A DNA stretch of 56,861 nt from Dehalococcoidia bacterium. GTDB lineage: Bacteria; Chloroflexota; Dehalococcoidia; DSTF01; JACRBR01. The position numbers and the translations under genes were made by a program. Positions within the stretch are counted from its first letter, which is position 1. Each line of letters starts with the position of its first letter. The stretch spans positions 1-56,861 of the forward strand of contig JADMII010000006.1 in NCBI GenBank assembly GCA_015478665.1, written 5' to 3'. Shown piece after piece: positions 32,405-53,409 of this stretch. The notes under the pieces were generated by a model. That model did not search any database. It was not told the DNA's origin and was given only the letters and a program-made list of their open reading frames with translations.

Positions 32405-33841
32405 TTACACGAAGAGGAAGCGCGTGGCATTGTCGATGACGCTGAAGAGGTTCGCCGGGTAGAGCCCGACGTAGAAGACGCCCGCCATCAGCGCCACCGT
32501 CAGCCCCTGCATTACGTACGGGACCTGCAGCTTGCGCTCGCCCTCCGCCGGCTGGCTGACGAACGCCTCGCGCATCACCTGCAGGTAGTAGTACAGCGAG
32601 ATCACGCTCGTCACGACGCCGATGCCGGCGAGCCAGTAGTACCCCTGGTCGGTCGCGGCCTGGAACAGGATGAACTTCGTCACGAAGCCGGCGAACAGCG
32701 GCAGGCCGGCGAGCGAGAACAGCGCGCCTGCCAGCGCGCCCGCCAGCAGCGGCGCCCGCTCGCGCATGCCGCGGAAATCGACGATCTCCTCTTTCCCCGT
32801 CAGGTTGTACCAGGCGATGATGACGACGAAGAGCGCCAGGTTCGTCACCATGTATCCCGTCAGGTGCAGCACCAGCGCTGAAGCGGTGTTGTGCGACAGC
32901 CCCGCGACACCCATCAGCAGGTAGCCGATCTGGCCGATCGATGAGTACGCCATCAGCCGCTTGATGTTGTGCTGCTGCAGCGCGACGAGGTTCCCGAGGA
33001 TCATCGATGCCGCCGCGACGCCGGCGATCATCCAGCTCCAGTCGTCGTGGACCACCTGGAAGGCGCCGCCGAAGAGCCGCAGCAGCAGCGCAAAACCCGC
33101 CGCCTTCGATGTCGTCGAGAGGTACGCGGTAATCGCGATCGGCGCGCCCTCGTAGGCGTCCGGCGTCCACATGTGGAACGGCACCGCCGCCACCTTGAAT
33201 CCCAGGCCGGCGATGATCAGCACGAGCGCCATCAGCAGGGCGAACGAGAAGTCATGCGTGCCACGGCTGAGCGCCGAGGCGATGTCGCCGTAGTACGTCG
33301 AGCCGGTGACGCCGTAGATCAGGCTCAGCCCGTAGAGGAACATCGCCGATGAGAAGGCGCCCAGCAGCAGGTACTTCAGCCCCGCCTCGTTCGAGCGTGC
33401 GTCGAACTTCGCGAACGACACGAGGATGTACAGGCTGAAGCTCAAGAGCTCGAGCGAGAGGTACGCCGTCATCAGCTCGCGCGCCGCCGCCATGCCGATG
33501 GCGCCGATCGTCGAGAGGATGATGATGCCGAAGTACTCGCCCGGGTGCCGCAGCTGGTCCTCGACCAGCCGGCCCGACGCCAGGCAGACGACTGCGGCGA
33601 TCAGCATGAAGAACACGCGGAAGTACGTCGTGTAGTTGTCGATCGAGACGATGCCGGCGAAGTTCGTCTGCTTGTTCACCCACGCCAGCGACACGCCGGC
33701 GGTGATCGCCAAGCCCGTGGCGGCGACGTACGGCAGCCACGACTTCCGTAGCTGCGGCATGAAGAGATCCAGCGCCACGACGAGCGCCGCCAGGCCTCCG
33801 AGCATGAACTCCGGGATGAACAGCGTGTAGTCGAAGTTCAA
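32405..33841 (-). CDS. nuoN: NADH-quinone oxidoreductase subunit N
   Basis: A 478-residue antiporter-like proton-pumping subunit with about 14 helices. Hallmarks are LMTAYLSLELLSFSLYILVS (Glu in helix 5), GLGFKVAAVPFHMWTPDAYE (Lys-bearing helix), STTSKAAGFALLLRLFGGAF and RLMAYSSIGQIGYLLMG. The start is inferred as TTG at 33841, one base after the nuoM stop region; no ATG lies upstream of the conserved start NFDYTLFIPEFMLGG. It is the last gene of the complex I operon. Confidence 0.95.
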   Translation of the reverse strand: MNFDYTLFIPEFMLGGLAALVVALDLFMPQLRKSWLPYVAATGLAITAGVSLAWVNKQTNFAGIVSIDNYTTYFRVFFMLIAAVVCLASGRLVEDQLRHPGEYFGIIILSTIGAIGMAAARELMTAYLSLELLSFSLYILVSFAKFDARSNEAGLKYLLLGAFSSAMFLYGLSLIYGVTGSTYYGDIASALSRGTHDFSFALLMALVLIIAGLGFKVAAVPFHMWTPDAYEGAPIAITAYLSTTSKAAGFALLLRLFGGAFQVVHDDWSWMIAGVAAASMILGNLVALQQHNIKRLMAYSSIGQIGYLLMGVAGLSHNTASALVLHLTGYMVTNLALFVVIIAWYNLTGKEEIVDFRGMRERAPLLAGALAGALFSLAGLPLFAGFVTKFILFQAATDQGYYWLAGIGVVTSVISLYYYLQVMREAFVSQPAEGERKLQVPYVMQGLTVALMAGVFYVGLYPANLFSVIDNATRFLFV

Positions 33842-33842
33842 A

Positions 33843-35348
33843 TCACGACACCCCCGGCAGCAGGCGGACGGTCTCGCTGATGCGGTCGACGAACGGCGCC
33901 GGCCAGAGCCCCATGAAGAGGATGAAGCCGAGCAGCAGCGACGCCGTGCCGCGCTCCAGGTAGGTCATCTCCTTCAGGCTCGCCCAGCGCTCGTTGAACG
34001 GACCGAAGAGCGCCATCGACATCATCCGCAGGATGTACACCGCGGTGATCGCCGCCGCGAAGATGCCCAGCGCGGCCGCCCACGGGTACGTCTGGAACGT
34101 GCCGACGAAGACGTTGAACTCGGCGACGAAGCCCGAGAGCCCCGGCAGCCCCAGCGACGCCAGCCCGGCGATGCCAAAGAAGAAGACGAAGAACGGCATC
34201 TTCTGCACCAGCCCGCCGAAGAGCGTCATGTCACGCGTGTGCGCCTGGTCGTAGACCGAGCCGACCATCGCGAAGAAGGTCGCCGTCATCACGCCATGCG
34301 AGAACATCTGCAGCACCGCGCCGTCGATGCCGATCGTGTTCATCGTCGCCAGCCCCATCAGCACGAGTCCCATGTGGCTGACCGACGAGTAGCCGATCAT
34401 GTACTTGAAGTCGCGCTGCGCCGTCGCAGCGAAGGCGCCGTAGACGACGTTCACCGTCGCCAGCACCATCAGCCCCGGCATCCAGAACGTCGCGCCCGCC
34501 GGCAGCAGCTGAATGCCCAGGCGGATGATCCCGAAGGCGCCGAGCTTCATCAGCACACCCGCGTGGAGCATCGAGACGGCCGTCGGCGCCGAGACGTGCC
34601 CGTCCGGCGACCAGGTGTGGAACGGCCACAGCCCGGCCAGCACGCCGCAACCGATGACGAACAGCGGGAACACCGCCTTCTGGAAGTTCTCGTCGAACTG
34701 CACCGCGTAGAGCGTCTGCAGGTCGAACGTGCCGGCGCCCGCCTTCTGGAACACCGCGAAGATGCCCAGGAAGATCAGGATCGAAGCCGAGACGAGCATG
34801 ATCGTCAGCTTCATCGCGCTGTATTCCTTCGTGCGCGTGAAGGTCGGGAAGGTGCTGCTCGACCCCCAGACGGCGATCAGCAGGTACATCGGCAGCACGG
34901 CCACTTCGTAGAAGAAGAAAAAGAAGAACAGGTCCAGCGACTCGAACGTTCCGTAGACCCCGGCAACCAGCACCCAGAAGAGGATGAAGAAGTCCTTGTT
35001 GTGGTGCTCGATCTTCCACGAGATCAGCGCCCCACCGAAGCAGACGATCCCCGTCAGCAGCACCATCGGCGCCGCGATGCCGTCGACCCCGAAGGCGAGA
35101 GAGATGCCGTGCGCCCGCAGAAACGCCGTGTTCTGCAGCCAGTCCCAGCGGATGAAGAACTGGAAACCGCCGCCGCGATCCAGCTCGTACGCGAAGAAGA
35201 CGAAGACCGAGATCGCGAACAGCGCCGCGCCGACCCCGGCGCTCAGCCAGCGCACAATGTCGTGCCGCTCGTCCGGCACGAACAGCAGCACCGCCGCCGC
35301 GATCAACGGCAGCCCGATGGATGCGATGAGCCAGTAGCCCGAGTGCAT
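33843..35348 (-). CDS. nuoM: NADH-quinone oxidoreductase subunit M
   Basis: A 501-residue proton-pumping subunit. Diagnostic segments are LFFFFFFYEVAVLPMYLLIA (helix 5 Glu), WPFHTWSPDGHVSAPTAVSM (Lys and loop region), LKLGAFGIIR-like MKLGAFGIIRLG and YMIGYSSVSHMGLVLMGLA. The ATG is four bases after GGAG, seven bases past the nuoL stop. The length matches bacterial NuoM. Confidence 0.96.
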   Translation of the reverse strand: MHSGYWLIASIGLPLIAAAVLLFVPDERHDIVRWLSAGVGAALFAISVFVFFAYELDRGGGFQFFIRWDWLQNTAFLRAHGISLAFGVDGIAAPMVLLTGIVCFGGALISWKIEHHNKDFFILFWVLVAGVYGTFESLDLFFFFFFYEVAVLPMYLLIAVWGSSSTFPTFTRTKEYSAMKLTIMLVSASILIFLGIFAVFQKAGAGTFDLQTLYAVQFDENFQKAVFPLFVIGCGVLAGLWPFHTWSPDGHVSAPTAVSMLHAGVLMKLGAFGIIRLGIQLLPAGATFWMPGLMVLATVNVVYGAFAATAQRDFKYMIGYSSVSHMGLVLMGLATMNTIGIDGAVLQMFSHGVMTATFFAMVGSVYDQAHTRDMTLFGGLVQKMPFFVFFFGIAGLASLGLPGLSGFVAEFNVFVGTFQTYPWAAALGIFAAAITAVYILRMMSMALFGPFNERWASLKEMTYLERGTASLLLGFILFMGLWPAPFVDRISETVRLLPGVS

Positions 35349-35355
35349 GGCGCTC

Positions 35356-37257
35356 CTACGTCCTGTAGCCGAATGCGACGGCGAAGATGACGACGATGCC
35401 GATGACGATCGCCAGCGCGTAGTTCGGGATCTTCCCCGTCTGCTGGTACTTTCCCAGCCAGCCGAGGAACGACGCCGTCTCGCCGGCGCCGTTCACCCCG
35501 GAGTCGTTCACGACCGCCCGGTCGAACACCGCCACCACGCGGCCTGTGGCGAGCACGATCTTGTCGATCGCGAACTGGTAGACCTCGTCGATGTAGAAGC
35601 GGTTGTAGAACAACCTGTAGAGCAGCGGAGAGAACGCCGCCGCCCGCTTCGACGGCTCCGCGTCGCCCCACCACATCCACGTCCCCAGCCCGAGGCCCGT
35701 AACGACGAGCGCCACCGAGCCGACGGCCAGCCCCCAGTTCACCGAGAACGTCTCCGGGCCCTCGGCCGCATTGAAGATGAATCCCAGGAAGCCGGAGTGG
35801 AAGCCGAGCGCCTTCCCCACCCCCTCGAACACGACGAAGCCGCTGACGACCGCGAGCGCGCCCAGCAGCAGCAGCGGCCAGCTCATCGCCGGCTCGGACT
35901 CGTGCGCGTGCCCGTGCACGTGCGCGTCCTTCACTGTGCCGAAGAACGTCAGCATCACCAGCCGCGCCATGTAGATCGCCGTGATCGGCAGGCTGATCAT
36001 CGTGACGATGAGCGCGATGGAATTGAGGTTGCCGTTGTAGAGGCCGACGAGGATCTCGTCCTTCGCCCAGTACCCGGAGAACGGCACGAGGCCCGCCATT
36101 GCCAGCGCGCCGACGACGAACATCGGCGCCGTGATCGGCAGCTTGCCCCAGAGTCCGCCGAGCTTGTCGACCTCCTGCTCCTCGGTCGCATGGATCACCG
36201 AGCCGCAGCCGAGGAAGAGCAGCGCCTTGAAGAACGCGTGCGTAAGCAGGTACAGCATCGCCGCGCCGACCGCGCCCGAGCCGAGCGCGACGAACATCAG
36301 CCCGAGGCTGTTGAGCGTCGAGTAGGCGACGACGCGCTTGATGTCGCGCTGCGCCAGCCCGCAGAAGACGGCGATCGTCGTCGTCGTCAGTCCGAGCGCG
36401 GTGATCAGCTCCGGCATGCCCCGCACGACCTCGAACAGCGGCAGCAGGCGCGCGACGAGGTAGACGCCGGCGACGACCATCGTCGCCGCATGGATCAGCG
36501 CCGAGACCGGCGTCGGGCCTTCCATCGCGTCCGGCAGCCAGACGTGGAGCGGGAATTGCGCCGACTTGCCGCAGGCGCCGGCGAGGATCAGCACCGCCGA
36601 CGCCGTCAGCCACTGGCGCGAGATCTCGCCCGCCTCCGCCATGCGCAAGATGTCCTGGATGTTGAAGGTGTGCGTTTGCGTGAAGAGGATGATGATGCCG
36701 ATGAGCAGGCCGACGTCCCCCACGCGCGTCGTGATGAACGCCTTCTTCGAAGCCTCCGCCGCCGTCTGCTTGTCGTAGTAGTAGCCGATGAGCAACATCG
36801 AGCAGAGGCCGACGAGCTCCCATGAGAAATAGAGCAGGAGCAGGTTGTCGGCCAGCACCAGCGACAGCATCGACGCAACGAACAACGAGACGATGGCGTA
36901 GAACCAGCCGTACCGCTTGTCGCCCCGCATGTACCCGGTCGAGTAGATCATCACGATCAGCGCGATGAGCGTGACGCAGAACAGCATCACGAGCGTGATC
37001 TGGTCGACGAACGTCCCCATGCGAATTTCGATGTAGCCCGGGATGTTCAACCACTCGCGGCTCCGCTCGACGCCCTGGAAATTGCCGTTGCCGATCGACA
37101 GCGCCACGTCGCGCGCGATGGGGAAGACGAGCGCGAACGACGCCGCCATCAGCGCGATGGCGATCCAGTCGCCCTTGCGCGGCAGCCACGTGCTGAACAG
37201 CAGCAGCACGATGAAGCCGGCGACCGGCAGCGCCGGCAGCACCCAGGCGTCCGTCAT
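35356..37257 (-). CDS. nuoL: NADH-quinone oxidoreductase subunit L
   Basis: A 633-residue subunit, the largest proton pump, with the C-terminal lateral helix region (LYRLFYNRFYIDEVYQFAID). It has LLLLYFSWELVGLCSMLLIG (Glu), KSAQFPLHVWLPDAMEGPTPVSALIHAATMV with the helix 7-8 Lys, and RDIKRVVAYSTLNSLGLMF. A His-rich loop, KDAHVHGHAHESEP, faces one side of the membrane. The 54-base gap after nuoK is the widest in the operon. Confidence 0.96.
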   Translation of the reverse strand: MTDAWVLPALPVAGFIVLLLFSTWLPRKGDWIAIALMAASFALVFPIARDVALSIGNGNFQGVERSREWLNIPGYIEIRMGTFVDQITLVMLFCVTLIALIVMIYSTGYMRGDKRYGWFYAIVSLFVASMLSLVLADNLLLLYFSWELVGLCSMLLIGYYYDKQTAAEASKKAFITTRVGDVGLLIGIIILFTQTHTFNIQDILRMAEAGEISRQWLTASAVLILAGACGKSAQFPLHVWLPDAMEGPTPVSALIHAATMVVAGVYLVARLLPLFEVVRGMPELITALGLTTTTIAVFCGLAQRDIKRVVAYSTLNSLGLMFVALGSGAVGAAMLYLLTHAFFKALLFLGCGSVIHATEEQEVDKLGGLWGKLPITAPMFVVGALAMAGLVPFSGYWAKDEILVGLYNGNLNSIALIVTMISLPITAIYMARLVMLTFFGTVKDAHVHGHAHESEPAMSWPLLLLGALAVVSGFVVFEGVGKALGFHSGFLGFIFNAAEGPETFSVNWGLAVGSVALVVTGLGLGTWMWWGDAEPSKRAAAFSPLLYRLFYNRFYIDEVYQFAIDKIVLATGRVVAVFDRAVVNDSGVNGAGETASFLGWLGKYQQTGKIPNYALAIVIGIVVIFAVAFGYRT

Positions 37258-37311
37258 CCCGAAGCTAATGGCCGCCCTCCTCGCCCGCCCGCGCCGGCTC
37301 CCTCACCTCGA

Positions 37312-37638
37312 TCACCACTTGAGTGTGTCGATCTCGTCGATGTTCGCCGTGCCGCGGTTCCGGAACACGCGCAGGATCACCGCCAGCGCCAGGCCGACTT
37401 CTGCCGCCGCGATGGTGATGATGAAGATCGCGAAGATGATGCCGACGAACAGCGTCGGCGCCGTATACACCGCGAACGCAACCATGTTGATGCTCACCGC
37501 GTTCAGCATCAGCTCGACCGACATCACCACCAGCACGGCGTTCCGCCGCGACAGCACGCCGTAGACGCCGATCGAGAACAGAATCGCGCTGAGCACGATG
37601 AACTGCTCGAGCGGGATCTCCTGCGGGACGCTCGTCAC
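37312..37638 (-). CDS. nuoK: NADH-quinone oxidoreductase subunit K
   Basis: A 108-residue membrane subunit: [40 protein letters not shown] (conserved Glu) and [20 protein letters not shown] (second Glu). The GTG start overlaps the nuoJ stop (GTGA). The length and three helices are typical. Confidence 0.95.
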
Positions 37639-38135
37639 AGGTGCTCCCCCTCTTCCTGCATGGCGATGACGACCGCGCCGACCAGCGCCACCAGCAGCAC
37701 GCCGGAGGCGATCTCGAACGGCACCGCCCAGCGGTTGAACAGCGCGTTGCCGATGGTGTTGAAATCGATGCTCGTGATCGTGCCGTTGTCCCGCGGCCAC
37801 CTCGTCCGGTAGACCATCGTGATGAACCCGGCCAGCAGGCCGCCGCCGGCGAGCAGCGCGCCCAGCCGTTGCGCCGGCTCCGGCGCCCGCTCCCGCAGGT
37901 CGCGCACGTGCGTCAGCATCAGCGCGAACAGCAGCAGCACCGTCACGGCGCCGCCGTAGATCAGCAGCTGCACCAGCGCCAGGAACTCGGTCGCGAGCAG
38001 CACGTACACGCCGGCGACGCCCAGCAGCGATGCGATGAGGAAGAGCGCGGCGTACACCGTGCTCCGCGCCATGACGACGCCCAGCGCGCCGACGATCACC
38101 ACCGCTGCCACCAGGTCGAAGAATGCCTGTGTCAT
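37635..38135 (-). CDS. nuoJ: NADH-quinone oxidoreductase subunit J
   Basis: A 166-residue membrane subunit with five helices: [61 protein letters not shown] (the helix 3 pi-bulge region) and [17 protein letters not shown]. It starts in an ATGA overlap with the end of nuoI. Confidence 0.94.
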
Positions 38136-38596
38136 GCCCGCAGGCCAGGCTCTACGAGATGCTTTTTCGATTGCGACAGCAGCTGGTCGAGATCCATCAC
38201 CAGCTCCGAGCGGTCGTAGCGCGACAGCTCGTGGCCGGCCCACGTGTTGTTCATGCCGATCGCCTCGAAGTTGCACACCTCGACGCAGATGTTGCAGCGC
38301 ATGCAACGGCCGTAGTCGATCCAGAACTCGTCGATGATCTTGCGGCGCTTGCTCTCGCCGGCCGCGTGCTTTGGGTTGTCCTTCATCACCACCGTCATGC
38401 ACTCGACGGGGCAGGCGCGCTCGCACGCGTGGCAGCCGGTGCAGAACGGCTCGTCGTGCTCGTCGTCCCAGATCAGGATCGGGAAGGCGCGGTCGCGGTT
38501 CGGGATCTCACGGTGCGTCGTCGGGTATTCGATCGTCACCGGCTTGCGAAAGCAGGCGCGCGCCGTCATGCCCATGCTCTTGAGGATGCCCAGCAT
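38132..38596 (-). CDS. nuoI: NADH-quinone oxidoreductase subunit I (two 4Fe-4S clusters)
   Basis: A 154-residue ferredoxin-like subunit carrying clusters N6a and N6b: [17 protein letters not shown] and [20 protein letters not shown]. The Cys pattern CxxCxxCxxxCP is complete in both motifs. It connects the input module to NuoB. The ATG follows the nuoH stop directly with no gap. Confidence 0.95.
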
Positions 38597-39742
38597 CTAG
38601 ACCACACTCCTCGCCGGCATCGTGTTGCTGACCATCTTCAGCGGCACACGCGGCGTCACCCGCACCGCCCGGTACACGAGCGCGACCATCGCGAGCGCTG
38701 CCGCGCCGGACGTGATCAGCAGCACGATATCCGGCAAATCATAGACGAGCACGAGGCCGTTGAGGAAGATTTGCAGCAGCGCGAACGGGATCAGCACCTT
38801 CCACGCGTACGACATCAGCTGGTCGACGCGCAGCCGCGGGAACGACGTCCGCGACCAGAGGTAGAACACGATGAACAGGCTCATCTTGGCCAGCGTCAGG
38901 AAGAGCTGGTACCCCCAGCCGATGTCGCGCCCGAACGGCCACTCCCAGCCGCCGAGGAACACGAACGCCCCCAGCAGCGCGAAGACATACATGTTCACGT
39001 ACGAGGTCAGCTGGAACATCGACCAGCGGATGCCGCTGTACTCGATGAACACGCCGCCCGCCACTTCCGACTCGCCCGTCGGGATGTCGAACGGCTGCCG
39101 CTCCAGTTCCGCCACCGACGCCGTCAGGAAAATCAGGAAGCCCAGCGGCTGCCAGACGATCAGCGGCACCTTGTCCTGGAAGATGATGATGTCGCCGACG
39201 TTCACGCTCGACGTCACCATGACGATGCCGATCATCGCCAGGATCAGCGGGATCTCGTACGAGATCAACTGTGCCGCCGCGCGCATGCCGCCGAGCAGCG
39301 CGTACTTGCTGTCGGAGCCCCAGCCGGCCATCAGGAAGCCAATGAACGACAGCCCGGAGACCGCCAGCAGGAAGAGCAGGCTCAGCGGCATCGGGCTGAT
39401 GATCCAGTCCTCCGTGAACGGCACCGCCACCAGCGCGATGAACGCCGGCACGAAGATCGCAAAGACCGCAAGCTCGAACGCCACCGGGTCCGCCGTCGCC
39501 GGCCGCAAGTCTTCCTTGGCGACGAGCTTCACCGTGTCCGCGAACGCCTGCATGATGCCGTACGGCCCGGTGCGCATCGGCCCCAGCCGCTGCTGCATGC
39601 GCGCGACGACCTTCCGCTCGTAGTAGGTCGCGAACATCACCGCGAACGTCATCACCAGCGTCAGCGCGATGATCGCGAGCAACGCCGCCATCCAGCGCTG
39701 CGGCAGGTCGATGAGCGGCGCGGCGAGCAGCTCGATGCTCAT
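38597..39742 (-). CDS. nuoH: NADH-quinone oxidoreductase subunit H
   Basis: A 381-residue membrane subunit forming the quinone chamber: YYERKVVARMQQRLGPMRTG, DTVKLVAKEDLRPATADP, GWGSDSKYALLGGMRAAAQLISYE and ELERQPFDIPTGESEVAGGV with the conserved Glu residues, and SRTSFPRLRVDQLMSYAWKV. The ATG is three bases after the nuoD stop. Confidence 0.96.
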   Translation of the reverse strand: MSIELLAAPLIDLPQRWMAALLAIIALTLVMTFAVMFATYYERKVVARMQQRLGPMRTGPYGIMQAFADTVKLVAKEDLRPATADPVAFELAVFAIFVPAFIALVAVPFTEDWIISPMPLSLLFLLAVSGLSFIGFLMAGWGSDSKYALLGGMRAAAQLISYEIPLILAMIGIVMVTSSVNVGDIIIFQDKVPLIVWQPLGFLIFLTASVAELERQPFDIPTGESEVAGGVFIEYSGIRWSMFQLTSYVNMYVFALLGAFVFLGGWEWPFGRDIGWGYQLFLTLAKMSLFIVFYLWSRTSFPRLRVDQLMSYAWKVLIPFALLQIFLNGLVLVYDLPDIVLLITSGAAALAMVALVYRAVRVTPRVPLKMVSNTMPARSVV

Positions 39743-39745
39743 CTC

Positions 39746-40867
39746 CTAGCGGTCCACGTCGCAGAGCACGATGTCCATCGAGCCGAGGATCATCACCGCG
39801 TCCGCCAGGTACTGGCCGATCGTCATCTCGCGTAGCGCCGAGAGGTTACAGAACGATGGCGAGCGCATCTTCATCCGGTACGGCTTGTCGCCGCCCTTCG
39901 ACACCAGATACACACCCCACTCGCCCCGCGGCGACTCGACCTTCGCGTACACCTCGCCCGGCGGCGTCCGCAGCCGGCGCGGCATCTTGTCCGGCACGAT
40001 CGGCCCCTCCGGCAAGCCTTCGAGCGCCTGCTCGATGATCGCCAGCGACTGCCGCATCTCCTCGAGCCGCACCAGGTAGCGGTCGTACACGTCGCCATAG
40101 TGGCCGACGGGCACCTCGAACCGGAAGCGCTCGTAGATGCTGTACGGCTCGTCCTTGCGCAGGTCCCACGGCACGCCGGACGCCCGCAGGATCGGGCCGC
40201 TGAGCCCGTTCGCGATCGCCTGCTGCGCGCTGAAGCTGCCGATGTTCTGACAGCGCGCCATGAAGATCTCGTTCCGCGTCAGAAGGTCGTCGAGGTCCTG
40301 GATGCCCTTCGCCGATGTCTTCATCACATCGTGCACCCGTTCGACGAAGTTGTCCGTGACTTCCCACGCCAGCCCTCCGACGCGGAAGTAGGCGTACATC
40401 AGCCGGTCGCCCGACACCTCCTCGAAGACGTCCTGGAGGTACTCGCGCTCGCGGAAGGCGTAGGTGAAGCTCGTTCCGAAGAGCCCGGAGTCGATGCCGA
40501 ACGCGCCCATGAACATGAAGTGGCTGCTGAGCCGGTTCAACTCGGTCAGGATCACGCGGACGTACTGCGCCCGCTCCGGCACCTCGATCTCCATCAGCCG
40601 CTCGACCGCGAGCACGTAGCCCAGCTCGGCGCTGAACTGCGCCAGATACTCCGTCCGGTCGGCGTAGCCGATGCCCTGCCGGAAGTCCATCGCCTCCATC
40701 AGCTTCTCGCCCCCACGGTGCATGTAGCCGATGTGCGGCGTCACATCGAGCACCTTCTCGCCGGAGACGACGAGCACCATGCGGAAGACGCCGTGCGTGC
40801 TCGGATGCTGCGGCCCCATGTTGATCGGGATGTCGACGATCTCGGGCGCGTCCTGCTCCACCACCAC
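39746..40867 (-). CDS. nuoD: NADH-quinone oxidoreductase subunit D (49 kDa)
   Basis: A 373-residue quinone-site subunit: INMGPQHPSTHGVFRMVLVV (the conserved His in the quinone pocket), YMHRGGEKLMEAMDFRQGI, LNRLSSHFMFMGAFGIDSGL and the C-terminal SMDIVLCDVDR. The first start with fair support is GTG at 40867, right after the nuoC stop, with GGGGA upstream; a GTG at 40897 in frame would overlap nuoC by 29 bases. NuoC and NuoD are separate, not fused. Confidence 0.94.
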   Translation of the reverse strand: MVVEQDAPEIVDIPINMGPQHPSTHGVFRMVLVVSGEKVLDVTPHIGYMHRGGEKLMEAMDFRQGIGYADRTEYLAQFSAELGYVLAVERLMEIEVPERAQYVRVILTELNRLSSHFMFMGAFGIDSGLFGTSFTYAFREREYLQDVFEEVSGDRLMYAYFRVGGLAWEVTDNFVERVHDVMKTSAKGIQDLDDLLTRNEIFMARCQNIGSFSAQQAIANGLSGPILRASGVPWDLRKDEPYSIYERFRFEVPVGHYGDVYDRYLVRLEEMRQSLAIIEQALEGLPEGPIVPDKMPRRLRTPPGEVYAKVESPRGEWGVYLVSKGGDKPYRMKMRSPSFCNLSALREMTIGQYLADAVMILGSMDIVLCDVDR

Positions 40868-40868
40868 G

Positions 40869-41684
40869 CTACTCGTCCCCTTCGCCCGCGCCGTCACGCA
40901 GGTTCTCGCCCTGCCACTCGTCGATCTCCTGCAGCGGGTTGTCCTTCCGCAGCGGGAAGTGGTCCGTCATGTCCTCGGGCAGCAGCAGCGGCACGAGGTT
41001 CAGATGGCCATCGAACACGATGCCGAACATATCGCGCGTCTCCCGCTCGTGCCAGTCGGCCGCCGGGAAGATCGACGTCGCGCTCGGCACGACCGGGTCG
41101 TCGTAGGTCACGCGCGTCTTCACCGTCAGCTGGTGGCCGTGGTTCATCGAGAGCAGGTGGTACACGACTTCGAGCCCGCCCTCCTGCCAGTCGATGCCGC
41201 TCAGGCAGCGCAGGTACGTCAGCTCGAGCCGCGGGTCGTCGCGCGCCGCCGTGAGCACGGCGGGGATGTCGTCGCGGCCCACTTCGACTGCCACCTCCTC
41301 GCCGCGCAGCGCCGGCACCAGGTACGCCTGCATCGCCACGCCAGGCAGCGCCGCCGCGAGCAGCTCGTTGACGCTGCCGGCGGGCGGCGCGATCCGCGGC
41401 GCTTCCTTCGCTTCAGCTTCCTTCGCCGGTCGAGCCGGCTTTGGCGCCGCGGCTTTGGCGGCCGCTGCTGCCTCGGGCGCGACCGTCGGCGGACCGGTCG
41501 AATCGCTCTTGCGGCCGCCGCCGCCGGCCGCCGTATCGAAGGCCGGCGAGGGCTCCCCGGCAGCCGTCGACTTCCCGGCGTCCTGCGCCTGCTCGGCCTG
41601 GGCCTCCTCGGGCGTCGGTGGCGGTGCGGAAGCACCGCTGGCGTGCGGCGTTGGCGTCGGCTGCTCGTCCTCGCCTTCAGCCAT
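40869..41684 (-). CDS. nuoC: NADH-quinone oxidoreductase subunit C with long low-complexity N-terminus
   Basis: A 271-residue protein. Residues about 105-271 are the 30-kDa subunit (DPRLELTYLRCLSGIDWQEG, VVYHLLSMNHGHQLTVKTRV, PAADWHERETRDMFGIVFDG, PLLLPEDMTDHFPLRKD). The first 100 residues are Pro/Ala/Glu/Lys-rich, ending in a run of KPARPAKEAEAKEAPR, and look disordered; this is unusual for NuoC. The ATG overlaps the nuoB stop by one base (TGATG). The tail is acidic. Confidence 0.93.
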   Translation of the reverse strand: MAEGEDEQPTPTPHASGASAPPPTPEEAQAEQAQDAGKSTAAGEPSPAFDTAAGGGGRKSDSTGPPTVAPEAAAAAKAAAPKPARPAKEAEAKEAPRIAPPAGSVNELLAAALPGVAMQAYLVPALRGEEVAVEVGRDDIPAVLTAARDDPRLELTYLRCLSGIDWQEGGLEVVYHLLSMNHGHQLTVKTRVTYDDPVVPSATSIFPAADWHERETRDMFGIVFDGHLNLVPLLLPEDMTDHFPLRKDNPLQEIDEWQGENLRDGAGEGDE

Positions 41685-48347: not shown

Positions 48348-49589
48348 ATGGCTGAGCCCGTGAAGGACTGGACGACCGACTACGACATCTTCGACCCGGC
48401 GTACAAGCGCGACCCGTTCCCCATCTGGGACGAGATCCGCGAGGAGTGCCCGATCGCCCACACGGAGCGCTGGGGCGGCTCGTTCATGCCGACGCGCTAC
48501 GAGGACCTCTTCAACATCGCCCGCAACATCCAGACGTACTCGTCGCGTAACGTGCTCGTCGCCGACTTCGAGCCGAGCGCCTACGGCGAGGACCCCGAGG
48601 GCGTGCCCGCAGAGGTGCAGACGGCGTCGCAGACCGCGGGCGGCGCGCCGCCGATTACGGCCGACCCGCCGGTGCATACCTGGGCGCGCAAGCTGCTGCT
48701 GCCGCCGTTCTCGGCGACGCAGGTCGCGCGCTACGAGCCGGAGACGCGGGAGCTGTGCGCCGAGCTGATCGCCGGCTTCATCGCCAACGGCCGCGCGGAC
48801 GGTGCGGCGGACTACGCGCAGCAGATCCCGCCGCGGGTCATCGCCAGCATGCTGGGCATCCCGAAGGACAAGGCCGAGACGTTCACCGGCTGGGTGCGCG
48901 GGTTTCTCGAGCTGGGGTTGACGGATCCGGAGATGCGGCAGTCGTCAGCGATCAGCATCTTCAGTTACATGAACGAGGTGATCCAGGAGCGCAAGCAGAA
49001 CCTCCGCGAGGGCGACCTCCCCAGCTATCTGCTGACATCGCAGGTCGACGGCGAGCCGGTGCCCGAAGCCCACGTGCTCGGCACCTGCTTCCTGCTGATG
49101 GTCGCCGGCATCGACACGACCTGGAGCTCGATCGGCTCCGCCATCTGGCACCTGGCGCAGCACCCGGCGGACCGGGCGCGGCTCATCGCCGAGCCGGAGC
49201 TGATCGACAGCGCCGTCGAGGAGTTGCTGCGCGCCTACTCGCCGGTCACGATGGCGCGCTATGTCGCCGAGGAGACGGAGTACGCCGGCTGCCCGATGCA
49301 CGAGGGCGACAAGGTGCTGATGAACTTCCCCGCCGCCAACCGCGACCCGCGCGTGTTCGAGAACCCGGACCAGGTGATCATCGACCGCGAGAAGAACCCG
49401 CACATCGCCTTCGGAGTCGGCATCCACCGCTGCGCGGGCTCGAACCTCGCGCGGATGGAGATGAAGGTGGCGATCCAGGAATGGCTGAAGCACATCCCGG
49501 AGTTCCGGCTGGAGGCGCCCGACGAGGTAACATGGGCGGGCGGCCAGGTGCGCGGCCCGCGGAAGATGGCATTGGTGTGGGGGTCATGA
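48348..49589 (+). CDS. Cytochrome P450
   Basis: A 413-residue soluble bacterial P450. Motifs in order: AGIDTT in the I helix (about 253-258, the O2-activating Thr pair), EELLR (ExxR, about 291-295), NRDPRVFENPDQ and the heme-binding FGVGIHRCAGSNLAR with the proximal Cys at about 362. It would hydroxylate a hydrophobic substrate using electrons from the ferredoxin encoded next, whose start overlaps its stop (ATGA). The ATG follows AGGAAG by seven bases; an in-frame GTG six bases earlier is possible. Confidence 0.95.
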   Translation: MAEPVKDWTTDYDIFDPAYKRDPFPIWDEIREECPIAHTERWGGSFMPTRYEDLFNIARNIQTYSSRNVLVADFEPSAYGEDPEGVPAEVQTASQTAGGAPPITADPPVHTWARKLLLPPFSATQVARYEPETRELCAELIAGFIANGRADGAADYAQQIPPRVIASMLGIPKDKAETFTGWVRGFLELGLTDPEMRQSSAISIFSYMNEVIQERKQNLREGDLPSYLLTSQVDGEPVPEAHVLGTCFLLMVAGIDTTWSSIGSAIWHLAQHPADRARLIAEPELIDSAVEELLRAYSPVTMARYVAEETEYAGCPMHEGDKVLMNFPAANRDPRVFENPDQVIIDREKNPHIAFGVGIHRCAGSNLARMEMKVAIQEWLKHIPEFRLEAPDEVTWAGGQVRGPRKMALVWGS

Positions 49590-49795
49590 AGGTCCACGTA
49601 GACAGCGAAAAGTGTCAGGGGCACAACCGGTGCTACGCGCTCGCGCCCGGCCTGTTCAAGGTCGACGAGTTCGGCTACGCCACCGAGCGCAACGACGGCG
49701 TCGTGCCGGAGAACATGCGCGACAAGGCGCGGCTCGCGGTCGAGAACTGCCCGGAGCGCGCGATCAGCATCGTCGAAGACGACGCCTCGGCCTGA
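49586..49795 (+). CDS. P450-type 3Fe-4S ferredoxin
   Basis: A 69-residue ferredoxin: VHVDSEKCQGHNRCYALAPG (Cys about 10 and 16), LFKVDEFGYA and AVENCPERAISIVED (third Cys about 55). With CxxxxxC and a single CP it has three cluster ligands, typical of 3Fe-4S ferredoxins serving P450s. It overlaps the P450 stop by four bases. No ferredoxin reductase is in the window. Confidence 0.93.
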   Translation: MKVHVDSEKCQGHNRCYALAPGLFKVDEFGYATERNDGVVPENMRDKARLAVENCPERAISIVEDDASA

Positions 49796-49859
49796 GCGGC
49801 GCCTCCGCGCCCACGGCCACAAAGCGCTGCGGACGCGTAGTGACGAGCACGAGGAGCAC

Positions 49860-50666
49860 ATGGAATACCGGGATCTGCTGTTCGATGTCAGCGACCACAT
49901 CGCCACGATCACCCTCAACCGGCCGGAACGCCTGAACGCCATCTCCGGCGGCATGCTGGCGTCGTTCTCCGACGCGCTGCGCGAGTCCGACCACGACCGC
50001 GACGTGCGGGCGATCATCATCACGGGCGCGGGCCGCGGCTTCTGCTCGGGGCTCGACCTCAAGGAGCAGGGCGAGCGCTCCTCGCGCGACGGCGTCAACG
50101 GCGCCGAGGCGGCGTCGAGCGCCGCGCGCTTCGACCTCGCGTCGAGCCCGCCGATCGTCCTGCACCAGACCGACAAGCCGGTGATCTGCGCGCTCAATGG
50201 CGCCGCCGCCGGCTACGGCATGGACCTCGCGCTCGGCTGCGACATCCGCATCGCGTCGGACCAGGCGAAGCTCGCGGCGGTGTTCACGAAGCGCGGCGTG
50301 CTGCCGGAGAGCGGCGGCGCCTGGCTGCTGCCGCGTCTCATCGGCTGGTCGAAGGCCGCCGAGATCGCGTTCCTCGGCAAGGTGCTCGGCGCGCAGGAAT
50401 GCCTCGAGCTCGGGCTCGTCAGCCGCGTCGTCCCGGCGGAGTCGCTGATCGATGAGGCGCGCGCGATGGCGGCCGAGATCGCCCGCAACGCGCCGCTGGC
50501 GGTGCAGGCGACGAAGCGGATGATGCGCCTGGCGCTCGAAGAGACGTTCGAGGCGAGCGTGCATCACGTCTACCTGCAACTGCTGCCGCTGTTCGGCTCG
50601 CGCGACTTCCACGAGGGCGTGCAGGCATTCATCGAGCGCCGCGAGCCGCACTTCGAAGGACGCTGA
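49860..50666 (+). CDS. Enoyl-CoA hydratase/isomerase family protein
   Basis: A 268-residue crotonase-fold protein. Oxyanion-hole segments are ITGAGRGFCSGLDLKEQGE and LNGAAAGYGMDLALGCDIRI; RGVLPESGGAWLLPRLIGW carries a Glu at a typical catalytic position. It would hydrate or isomerise an acyl-CoA double bond. GAGGAG precedes the ATG. It follows the ferredoxin by 64 bases and probably shares the P450 transcript, suggesting combined hydroxylation and CoA-dependent breakdown. Confidence 0.9.
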   Translation: MEYRDLLFDVSDHIATITLNRPERLNAISGGMLASFSDALRESDHDRDVRAIIITGAGRGFCSGLDLKEQGERSSRDGVNGAEAASSAARFDLASSPPIVLHQTDKPVICALNGAAAGYGMDLALGCDIRIASDQAKLAAVFTKRGVLPESGGAWLLPRLIGWSKAAEIAFLGKVLGAQECLELGLVSRVVPAESLIDEARAMAAEIARNAPLAVQATKRMMRLALEETFEASVHHVYLQLLPLFGSRDFHEGVQAFIERREPHFEGR

Positions 50667-50710: not shown

Positions 50711-51880
50711 CTATGGTCGCGCGATGATCAGCGAGGCATTGGCGCCGAGGCCGAACGCGTTCACCATCGCCTTCGAACCGAGCAGCCGGCGGACGTCGCC
50801 GGCGACGAGTTCGAGGCCGCCGCACGCCGGGTCCTGCTGCTCGAGGTTCAGCGTCGGCGGGATAAGGCCGGACTGCAGGCAGAAGATCGCTGCAAGCACG
50901 CCGAACGCGCCCGAAGCGCCGAGCGCATGACCGAGGGCGCCCTTGATCGACGTCACCCAGAGCCGGTCCTTGTTCGGGCCCCAGACGCGGTTGATCGCCT
51001 GACCCTCGAGCGCGTCGAGCGTGGGGCCGATGCCGCCGCCGCTGCCGAAGATCACGTCGATCTCACCCTGCAGCGTGATCTCCCACGAGCGCAACGCCGC
51101 CTGCATCGCCCGCGCGATATCGGTCGGGTTCGCGGCGGCATGCGCGACCGGCGCGCGGTTGAACGTCGCGCCGTAGCCTTCGATGTAGCCGAGGATGTGG
51201 GCGCCGCGGCGCACCGCCAGTTCCTCATCCTCCAGCACGACCATCGCCGCGCCCTCGCTCAGCGCGAATCCGTCGGCGCTCGCGTCGTACGGTCGGACAG
51301 CGTGCGCCGGGTCGTCGTTGCGATGCGTGAGCAGGCCGTGGCCGTCGAAGTGCGCCACCCATTGCGGCGAGAGCGGCGACTCGGCGCCGCCGGCGACGGC
51401 GGCGGCGCAGTGCTCGCCACGGATCCACTCCGCCGCCTGGCCGATGGCCATCAGCCCCGAAGGCGCGGCGTTCTGGAGCTGGCTCACCGGCCCGCCGGCG
51501 CTTACGGTCCGCGCGATCGTCATCGCCGTCGAGACGGAGCCTTCGCCGGGCAGCTCGCAGCCGACGGCGACGCCGATCGCCGCCGTGCTCTCGCTCGTGA
51601 TCGGCAGCGTGCTCTGGATCAGCGCCTGGATCGCCGCATCGGCGGCGAAGAGCGCGCGCCGATCCATCCACGCGGCGGCCTCCGGGTCGATGTCCTCGCG
51701 CGCGGCGTACCCGGGCACCTCGCCGCCCACGCGGCAACCGAGCGACGAGGCGTCGAACGAGGTGATGGCGCGCAGGCCGCTGCGGCCTTCGCTCAGGCCC
51801 GCCCAGAGCGACGCGGCGTCGCGCCCGAACGGCGAGACGGCGCCGACACCCGTGATGCAGACGCGCTTCGAGTCCGCCAT
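50711..51880 (-). CDS. FabF-like ketosynthase lacking catalytic Cys
   Basis: A 389-residue thiolase-fold protein aligned over its length with beta-ketoacyl-ACP synthase II (MADSKRVCITGVGAVSPFGR, EGAAMVVLEDEELAVRRGAH, SIKGALGHALGASGAFGV). The active-site Cys is replaced by Ala (LQNAAPSGLMAIGQAAEW, about 139), and the first active-site His region NAHGT by FGSGGG (about 278-283); the Lys and second His (about 313 and 318) are kept. It therefore cannot be a normal condensing enzyme and resembles chain-length-factor-type partners. The promoter is leaderless-type (TACCTT, six bases). It is convergent with the enoyl-CoA hydratase gene. Confidence 0.88.
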   Translation of the reverse strand: MADSKRVCITGVGAVSPFGRDAASLWAGLSEGRSGLRAITSFDASSLGCRVGGEVPGYAAREDIDPEAAAWMDRRALFAADAAIQALIQSTLPITSESTAAIGVAVGCELPGEGSVSTAMTIARTVSAGGPVSQLQNAAPSGLMAIGQAAEWIRGEHCAAAVAGGAESPLSPQWVAHFDGHGLLTHRNDDPAHAVRPYDASADGFALSEGAAMVVLEDEELAVRRGAHILGYIEGYGATFNRAPVAHAAANPTDIARAMQAALRSWEITLQGEIDVIFGSGGGIGPTLDALEGQAINRVWGPNKDRLWVTSIKGALGHALGASGAFGVLAAIFCLQSGLIPPTLNLEQQDPACGGLELVAGDVRRLLGSKAMVNAFGLGANASLIIARP

Positions 51881-51886
51881 GCGGTG

Positions 51887-51892
51887 AAGGTA
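51887..51892 (-). promoter_or_regulatory. -10 element TACCTT, six bases before ATG
   Basis: On the minus strand TACCTT, CACCGC, then the ATG at 51880. Confidence 0.5.
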
Positions 51893-51912
51893 GCCTCTGG
51901 TCGCGCGGCGCG

Positions 51913-53397
51913 CTACCGGCGCACCCCCTCGGCCGCTGGCGTGCCGCCGTGCTCCTGCTGCGCCGCCAGATGCGCGATGTAGCGCGCCATCGCCCGCGCG
52001 GCGCGGTCGACGCTCGGGTACACGGCGAGGCGCGCGTCCGTGAGGCGCTGACGGCCGCCTTCGACCGCGCGCCACTTCGTCTCGTCCGGCGAGTCGGCGA
52101 CGCCGAGCACGAAGGCGATCGGCTTCTCCGCGCGCTCGCCGATCTCGGCGAAGCGCCCGACCAGGTGCGCCATGCGGTCGACGGCGTCGGGCCGTCCGAG
52201 CACCCAGTCCTCGCCGACGTTGGCGATGAGCCCGTCGAGCTCCGGACTGGCCAGCATCATCTCGAGCACGCGGGCGCCGGAGACGGCGCTGCCGGCGAGG
52301 ATCGACTGGTCGACGGGATTATCGACCCAGTCCGCGAGCTCCGGCGCGCGCTCGCGCAGCATGACGCGGATCGCCGCGGGGAGCTTCGGGACGCGCAGGC
52401 CGGCCTCTTCGCAGACGTCGGCGGACTGCACGGCGCGGCCGCCGCCACCGCCGACCACGCCGACCGCCGGGGCGGCGCCGAGCGCGTGCGCTTCGACGCG
52501 CAGGAAGGCGAAGGCGACGAGCATGTCGATCAGATCGTCGAAGGTGGAGACCTCGACGGCGCCCGCCTGCCGGAGCATGGCGCTCCACACCTGGCGCCGG
52601 CCCGCCAGCGCTGCCGTGTGCGAGGCCGCCGTGCGCGACCCGGCGCCCGTGCGTCCGCCCTTGAGCACGACGACGGGCTTGGCGCCGGCGCAGCGCCGCA
52701 GCGCCTCAAACAGCCGCCGGCCGTCGCCGGTGCCCTCGATGTAGGCGCCGACGACGCGCGTATCGTCGTCATCGGCGAGATAGTCGAGGAAGTCGGCCTC
52801 GCTGAGGTCGAGCGCGTTGCCGTAGCTCACGACCTTGCTGAAGCGCAGGCCGCGCGCCGCGCCGTGCAGCATCAGCTCGACGGAGTTGTTGCCGCTCTGC
52901 GAGAGGAAGGCGACGTCGCCGGGCTCGCGCGGCAAGTCCGGCCGGAAGGCCATGCCGCCCACCGCGTCGTACACGCCCATGCAGTTCGGCCCGATAACGC
53001 GGATGCCGGCGTCGGATGCGCGTCGCGCGACGTCGCGCTCGAGCGCCGCGGCGCCGGCGTCGCCGGTCTCGGCGAAGCGGCCGGTGAAGAGGTGCAGCGT
53101 GCGCACGCCCTTCGCGCGGCACTCGTCGATGAGCGGCAGCACCGCGGGCGCCGGCACGCACGAGATCGCGTAGTCGACGTCGCCCGGCACCGCCGCGAGC
53201 GTCGGGTAGGCCGGCAGGCCGGCGATCTCCGTCGCGCGCGGGTTGATCGGGTAGATCGGCCCCCGGAAGCCGAAGTCGATCAGCGAGCGGACGTAATCGT
53301 GCCCGGGCGAGTCGGCGTTCGACGAGGCGCCGACGACGGCGACGCTCGCCGGCCGGAAGACCGCGTCGGTGACGCCCGACGTCGCGGCAGATCCCAT
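51913..53397 (-). CDS. NDP-forming acyl-CoA synthetase, alpha-type (CoA-binding and ligase domains only)
   Basis: A 494-residue protein. The N-terminal CoA-binding Rossmann domain (VAVVGASSNADSPGHDYVRS, PIYPINPRATEIAGLPAYPT, GIRVIGPNCMGVYDAVGG) is followed by succinyl-CoA-ligase-like domains with FLSQSGNNSVELMLHGAARG and ASHTAALAGRRQVW, where the His is phosphorylated in the family. The C-terminal ATP-grasp domain or beta subunit is absent and not encoded nearby. It would make an acyl-CoA with an ADP-forming mechanism if a beta partner exists. TAGACT is exactly six bases before the ATG. Confidence 0.88.
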   Translation of the reverse strand: MGSAATSGVTDAVFRPASVAVVGASSNADSPGHDYVRSLIDFGFRGPIYPINPRATEIAGLPAYPTLAAVPGDVDYAISCVPAPAVLPLIDECRAKGVRTLHLFTGRFAETGDAGAAALERDVARRASDAGIRVIGPNCMGVYDAVGGMAFRPDLPREPGDVAFLSQSGNNSVELMLHGAARGLRFSKVVSYGNALDLSEADFLDYLADDDDTRVVGAYIEGTGDGRRLFEALRRCAGAKPVVVLKGGRTGAGSRTAASHTAALAGRRQVWSAMLRQAGAVEVSTFDDLIDMLVAFAFLRVEAHALGAAPAVGVVGGGGGRAVQSADVCEEAGLRVPKLPAAIRVMLRERAPELADWVDNPVDQSILAGSAVSGARVLEMMLASPELDGLIANVGEDWVLGRPDAVDRMAHLVGRFAEIGERAEKPIAFVLGVADSPDETKWRAVEGGRQRLTDARLAVYPSVDRAARAMARYIAHLAAQQEHGGTPAAEGVRR

Positions 53398-53403
53398 GCC
53401 GCG

Positions 53404-53409
53404 AGTCTA
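53404..53409 (-). promoter_or_regulatory. -10 element TAGACT, six bases before ATG
   Basis: On the minus strand TAGACT, CGCGGC, then the ATG at 53397. The same hexamer and spacing occur at 8485-8490. Confidence 0.6.

Follow-up and report, generated by a model that had tools for sequence, protein, structure and literature searches.

The ketosynthase locus and the neighboring synthetase

The window, by which we mean the whole 56,861-nucleotide stretch of DNA that was analyzed, lies on contig C9 of a genome assembly of 2.67 Mb that is 98.9% complete. It carries a minus-strand gene for a FabF-like ketosynthase, P0001, with the Pfam domains PF00109 and PF02801, and, upstream on the same strand after a gap of 32 nt, the gene for an acyl-CoA synthetase subunit, P0002 (Table 1). 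The mechanically predicted ketosynthase reading frame spans positions 50711 to 52075; the ATG at 51880 is the likely start, since the longer frame enters the synthetase gene and the orthologues start at this point.

Table 1. Positions of the ketosynthase gene, its altered sites, and nearby features in the window
Feature	Position	Strand	Basis or remark
FabF-like pseudo-ketosynthase P0001, Cys-less, 389 aa	50711..51880	-	Pfam PF00109/PF02801, orthologues, AF2 model
Codon of Ala139, nucleophile position (Cys163 of E. coli FabF)	51464..51466	-	Alignments
SGGGIG, residues 280-285, in place of HGTxT (first active-site His and pantetheine Thr)	51026..51043	-	Alignments
K-G-A-L-G-H, residues 313-318, Lys and second active-site His, retained in 8/9 sequences	50927..50944	-	
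P-E-A-A-A-W, residues 66-71, in place of the basic ACP-docking patch (E. coli FabF K65, R68, K69)	51668..51685	-	
Site of deletion of the FabF alpha4-alpha5 dimer/pocket segment (~27 aa), ~residues 109-118	51527..51556	-	Alignments
TACCTT, -10-like box at -12 from the ketosynthase ATG	51887..51892	-	Leaderless-type promoter
NDP-forming acyl-CoA synthetase alpha subunit P0002, 494 aa	51913..53397	-	Neighbor, outside the ketosynthase system
TAGACT, -10-like box at -12 from the synthetase ATG	53404..53409	-	
Enoyl-CoA hydratase/isomerase, final member of the convergent P450-ferredoxin run	49860..50666	+	Pfam PF00378

A TANNNT box is found exactly 12 nt before the ATG of both genes, which fits leaderless transcription and agrees with the promoter type assigned in a preliminary description of this DNA. 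None of four other gene starts checked in the window has TANNNT within 20 nt. The ketosynthase box, TACCTT, is conserved in three relatives (G002, G007, and G004) despite their differing gene neighbors. As also described earlier, the two genes converge on a plus-strand run (positions 48348 to 50666) of P450, 4Fe-4S ferredoxin, and enoyl-CoA hydratase genes. The ferredoxin of this run is of the single-cluster 4Fe-4S type, and the P450 scores far below every NCBIfam cutoff. Positions 32405 to 40897 of the minus strand carry genes for the membrane arm of complex I (Pfam Proton_antipo_M and NADHdh); the G+C content of this stretch is ~65%, compared with 71 to 73% elsewhere in the window.

P0002 contains CoA_binding and Succ_CoA_lig domains only and has no ATP-grasp domain (Pfam), so that its earlier recognition as an alpha-only NDP-forming synthetase stands. 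It shares both domains with solved alpha subunits (e.g., 4xyl), with which its S-H-T motif aligns. Only one protein of the genome is a strong ATP-grasp_5 match: a stand-alone beta subunit of 256 amino acids, encoded next to another alpha subunit on contig C26. A third alpha subunit is encoded on contig C1. Pyrococcus furiosus, where alpha subunits likewise occur without a beta of their own alongside, has five alphas and two betas, and each of the ten possible pairings is active (PMC3942289). Because a stand-alone beta is present elsewhere in the genome and beta-sharing alphas are known, an alpha-only synthetase without an adjacent beta is ordinary. A functional pair of ketosynthase and synthetase, which the preliminary description set side by side, would suit their short spacing and common strand in this genome. 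However, P0002 orthologues (57 to 85% identity) are widespread in the order, including genomes that have no Cys-less ketosynthase; neither the ketosynthase nor a P450 run is beside them in any of the eight loci read; and a beta subunit is at hand in the genome. Comparative gene context thus leads us to reject the two genes as a unit, and a functional pairing is highly improbable.

Loss of catalytic and carrier-docking residues in nine orthologous ketosynthases

In alignments, the nucleophile position of P0001 is Ala139, within N-A-A-P-S-G, and the HGT site reads S280-G281-G282 with an additional two-residue insert, which confirms the two substitutions first noticed in this protein. K313, H318, D289, and E292 are retained. 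Eight further genomes of one Dehalococcoidia order each contain an orthologue with 37 to 76% identity to P0001: five from the same family (family 1; G002, G003, G004, G006, and G007) at 64 to 76% and three from two sister families (G009, G012, and G015) at 37 to 42%. The relatives are apparently mostly draft metagenome-assembled genomes whose genes were called by a simple codon-bias script, and the G004 orthologue is incomplete, being truncated where its contig ends. At the nucleophile position, six of the nine sequences have Ala, two have Gly, one has Pro, and none has Cys; at the first-His position, four have Ser, two have Thr, two have Tyr, one has Gly, and none has His. Among 62 other ketosynthases in one alignment, excluding CLF (KS-beta) proteins, the Cys is present in 60 and the first His in 61. 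The Lys and second His are kept in eight of the nine Cys-less ketosynthases, and Asp289 and Glu292 are kept in all of them. The exception is the most divergent orthologue (G009, L048:5934-7010), which has lost the Lys and second His and is still located between fabH and folC. Residues that are new to the Cys-less ketosynthases and invariant in the clade are Y58, A70, L77, D81, P93, and Q271 (9/9), with R242 in 7/9.

Two trivial explanations had been raised for Ala139, namely, that the catalytic Cys is present in a shifted loop or that Ala is unique to this sequence and an error. The only invariant Cys residues of the family 1 orthologues are C8, C158, and C353, none of which is near the active-site motifs in sequence, and C353 is generally conserved. 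Because no newly conserved Cys is plausibly placed, we reject a shifted nucleophile. Sequencing error is likewise excluded, because the change is common to nine genomes.

A profile search covering 393 genomes from the class separated the nine clearly (lowest score, 461 bits) from the next sequence (373 bits). All 21 of the next-best ketosynthases of the class have the Cys, the first His (HGT-type motif), and K..GH, and the best extra match among 400 genomes of the phylum also retains all three. Because no more than four candidates per genome were scored in either search, a more divergent Cys-less ketosynthase elsewhere could have escaped. A scan of genome contigs with P0001 as a single protein found no relative, and an alignment-based contig scan returned two same-family records and one sister-family record of the orthologue, below which were mostly Actinomycetota KS-alpha/CLF loci. 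The nine Cys-less ketosynthases form one clade in the tree, with support of 100/99. We conclude that the Cys-less ketosynthase is a FabF paralogue with a single origin within the order.

The substitutions extend well beyond the nucleophile. In FabF, the first and second His together bind the substrate carbonyl (PMC7138838), and the Cys-less proteins differ from FabF/KASII in lacking the ACP-docking patch as well as the nucleophile, the first His, and the pantetheine Thr of the HGT motif, the last of which is gone in 9/9. The K65 position is basic in none of the nine, compared with 58 of the 62 other ketosynthases; the R68 position is basic in none, compared with 56 of 62; and the K69 position is basic in three, compared with 51 of 62. 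At K65 the replacement is Glu in five of the nine, and both K65E and K65A/K69A weaken AcpP-FabF cross-linking (PMC7138838). Gating loop 2 has a changed Asp, most of the nine also have a changed Phe in gating loop 1, and the I108 gate region is deleted in most. The alpha4-alpha5 stretch, which is part of the dimer interface in Listeria FabF (PMC5206705), is mostly deleted in seven of the nine (family 1, where ~27 residues are missing, and G009), while the family 4 proteins (G012 and G015) still have it. Judging from its residues, P0001 cannot condense by the normal mechanism. Taken together, the losses and the new invariant residues argue for a different surface under selection.

These losses bear on two roles offered in the preliminary description. 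Gln at the nucleophile position and the first His are characteristic of the KS-Q decarboxylating loading domains. A malonyl-ACP decarboxylase that primes synthesis as these domains do would explain why the nucleophile is replaced while the Lys and second His, which KS-Q domains also keep, are retained, and it would suit a gene adjacent to fabH in relatives. Yet the Cys-less ketosynthases have Ala or Gly instead of Gln, the first His and the pantetheine Thr are absent, and the docking residues are lost, in five cases by the very K65 change that impairs AcpP cross-linking in FabF. A protein that binds acyl carrier protein or serves as an acyl-ACP reservoir, for which the ketosynthase fold of the AlphaFold2 model offers a possible acyl pocket, faces the same absence of basic docking positions, and its gating loops are altered and its I108 gate region is mostly gone. 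Because all nine lack the first His, the K65/R68 docking residues, and the pantetheine Thr, both roles are disfavored: a decarboxylase is very unlikely, and a carrier-binding role has just as poor a prospect.

Fold, selective constraint, and association with fabH

An AlphaFold2 model of P0001, a monomer built on the nine-sequence alignment, has a mean pLDDT of 86.7 and a pTM of 0.91. Foldseek matches the model to FabF over its full length with a TM score of 0.92 to 0.94, and VIA-align superimposes it on FabF with a Z score of 61.2 and an rmsd of 1.6 over 383 residues at ~34% identity. The prediction is thus of a full FabF fold, in which both thiolase halves, the Lys-x4-His segment, and the D and E after the His loop are shared with FabF/KASII. 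The earlier statement that the rest of the fold is kept therefore holds for the overall fold but not for the alpha4-alpha5 dimer segment, which is deleted in P0001 and in most of its orthologues, a further difference from FabF/KASII. The NCBIfam fabF score of P0001, 267.1 bits, is below the curated threshold of 493.75.

Pairwise dN/dS values within family 1 are 0.22 to 0.50 for the Cys-less ketosynthase and 0.19 to 0.42 for fabH from the same genome pairs. The ketosynthase values are close to those of fabH, and the gene is therefore constrained. For distant pairs, where dS is near saturation, the values are 0.61 to 0.66, compared with 0.44 for fabH, which suggests that the divergent members evolve faster. 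The Cys-less ketosynthase is a maintained protein, kept by selection. It is present in 9 of 18 genomes of the order. Several genomes that do have fabH and ketosynthases, among them G005 (96% complete), G011 (93%), and G014 (87%), gave no match to it, which indicates that it is dispensable, and it was not found in the three genomes of the order without a fabH match either. This patchy distribution, the long branch of the G009 protein with its lost Lys and His, and the disappearance of several functional elements would be expected of a FabF paralogue that is drifting to loss with no defined role. We consider such drift unlikely, however, since the reading frames are intact (apart from the one cut by a contig end), dN/dS is near that of fabH, the promoter box is conserved, and the clade has invariant residues of its own.

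In five genomes from three families (G006, G004, G012, G015, and G009), the Cys-less ketosynthase gene immediately follows fabH on the same strand, and in four of these five loci hrcA is divergent from fabH. The gene order in G009 is fabH, Cys-less ketosynthase, folC; in G011, which has no Cys-less ketosynthase, it is fabH, folC, fabF. In the genome of the window this set is dispersed, with fabH on contig C66, folC-fabF on C27, and the Cys-less ketosynthase on C9, so that the linkage to fabH is seen in relatives only. In each of the nine genomes with the Cys-less ketosynthase, FabH retains its Cys-His-Asn residues (Cys, HQAN, and GNTS motifs). The neighbors of the Cys-less gene are fabH or unrelated genes, without sign of a type II PKS cluster, and the earlier view of a noncondensing ketosynthase outside such a cluster is upheld. 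In G002, an enoyl-CoA hydratase/isomerase gene (L042:6750-7517) directly precedes the Cys-less ketosynthase on the same strand; its product is 35% identical to the hydratase of the window. Because it lies directly 3' of fabH in five genomes, the Cys-less ketosynthase belongs with fatty acid synthesis.

A possible noncatalytic partner in fatty acid synthesis

Since P0001 is without its reactive residue and docking patch, yet is under selection and, in relatives, encoded adjacent to fabH, it probably serves as a helper subunit and not as an enzyme. The best surviving option of those in the preliminary description is a hetero-partner, and by analogy with known ketosynthase pairs we propose, with a probability of about 45%, that P0001 is a noncatalytic partner, similar to a CLF or CYF, of a Cys-bearing ketosynthase in type II FAS. 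Besides P0001, the genome encodes three FabF-type ketosynthases, two of them complete and with the Cys and the third cut at a contig end before the Cys position, so that candidate partners exist. P0001 would pair with one of these three; FabH is a less likely partner. It would shape or regulate its partner, as CLF (KS-beta) and AmcG do in type II PKS systems, with possible effects on chain length, starter use, or activity. A co-occurrence search for a single partner group gave no pattern among the genomes of the order; it is uninformative because Cys-bearing ketosynthase groups and fabH occur both with and without the Cys-less gene. A more specific version, in which P0001 is a dedicated CLF-like subunit working with FabH/FabF in ordinary membrane-lipid synthesis and not in secondary metabolism, is conceivable but doubtful.

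The resemblance to CLF is partial. Both are FabF-like proteins without the nucleophile, and in both the first-His site has become a similar small-residue loop, with CLFs showing an F-A-x-A-A-G type of change. In contrast, all six CLFs of our alignment have Gln at the nucleophile position, where the Cys-less ketosynthases have Ala, Gly, or Pro, and the Cys-less gene has no KS-alpha alongside and is linked to fabH rather than to a PKS cluster. The retention of the Lys and second His in 8/9, unlike in CLF, speaks against a CLF-like reading. The unconstrained tree separates the Cys-less ketosynthases from the CLFs, although a constrained grouping is not rejected (p-AU, 0.29). Two records from Acidobacteria and Omnitrophota (L087 and L114) contain KS-like proteins without the Cys (SGAGG and SSTGG) next to Cys-bearing ketosynthases, and these proteins group with the CLFs in the tree.

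There are precedents for such partners besides CLF. The cyclization factor (CYF) AmcG of the cispentacin type II PKS-like system lacks the functional motifs and some secondary structure and is soluble only as a heterodimer (PMC10698177). It differs from P0001, with which we compared it by description only, in belonging to secondary metabolism and in being encoded beside its ketosynthase, AmcF; P0001 scores 123.8 with the NCBIfam model of AmcF, the Cys-bearing partner, for which the cutoff is 325. The half-size ketosynthase partner ApeC likewise has no catalytic motifs and has lost secondary structure (PMC8358021). The deletion of alpha4-alpha5 in P0001 could equally mean that the protein no longer pairs. 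Also counting against a partner role are its dispensability and the separation, in the genome of the window, of fabH, the other ketosynthases, and the P0001 gene onto different contigs.

The leading alternative is that P0001 has become an enzyme of altered chemistry and acts on CoA esters rather than on ACP. Its new site would be made up of Lys313, His318, Glu292, and Arg242, the last of which is clade specific and sits in the former gating loop. For comparison, the steroid retro-aldolase Ltp2 is a Cys-less thiolase-like protein. The near-universal Lys and second His, the invariant Asp289 and Glu292, the new clade residues (Y58, L77, D81, P93, and Q271 throughout; R242 in 7/9), the loss of the ACP patch, and the acyl-CoA genes near P0001, together with the hydratase gene in G002, are consistent with such an enzyme. 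But the G009 protein has neither the Lys nor the His and is nevertheless encoded beside fabH, the acyl-CoA neighbors are not conserved, and the Lys and Glu may be retained for structure. We therefore regard a CoA-based enzyme as rather unlikely, and we favor the noncatalytic partner.

Noncatalytic ketosynthase partners are already known from polyketide pathways. In a literature search that had most subscription journals outside its reach, we found no FabF pseudoenzyme of fatty acid synthesis. If P0001 is a noncatalytic partner, ordinary fatty acid synthesis can also carry a noncatalytic ketosynthase subunit, one that is conserved at the fabH locus and whose carrier-docking surface has been removed. 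This would resemble the way in which KS/CLF pairs evolved from homodimeric ketosynthases, and the graded loss across the order, in which the family 4 proteins have the dimer segment while family 1 and G009 are without it, makes this evolutionary parallel testable.
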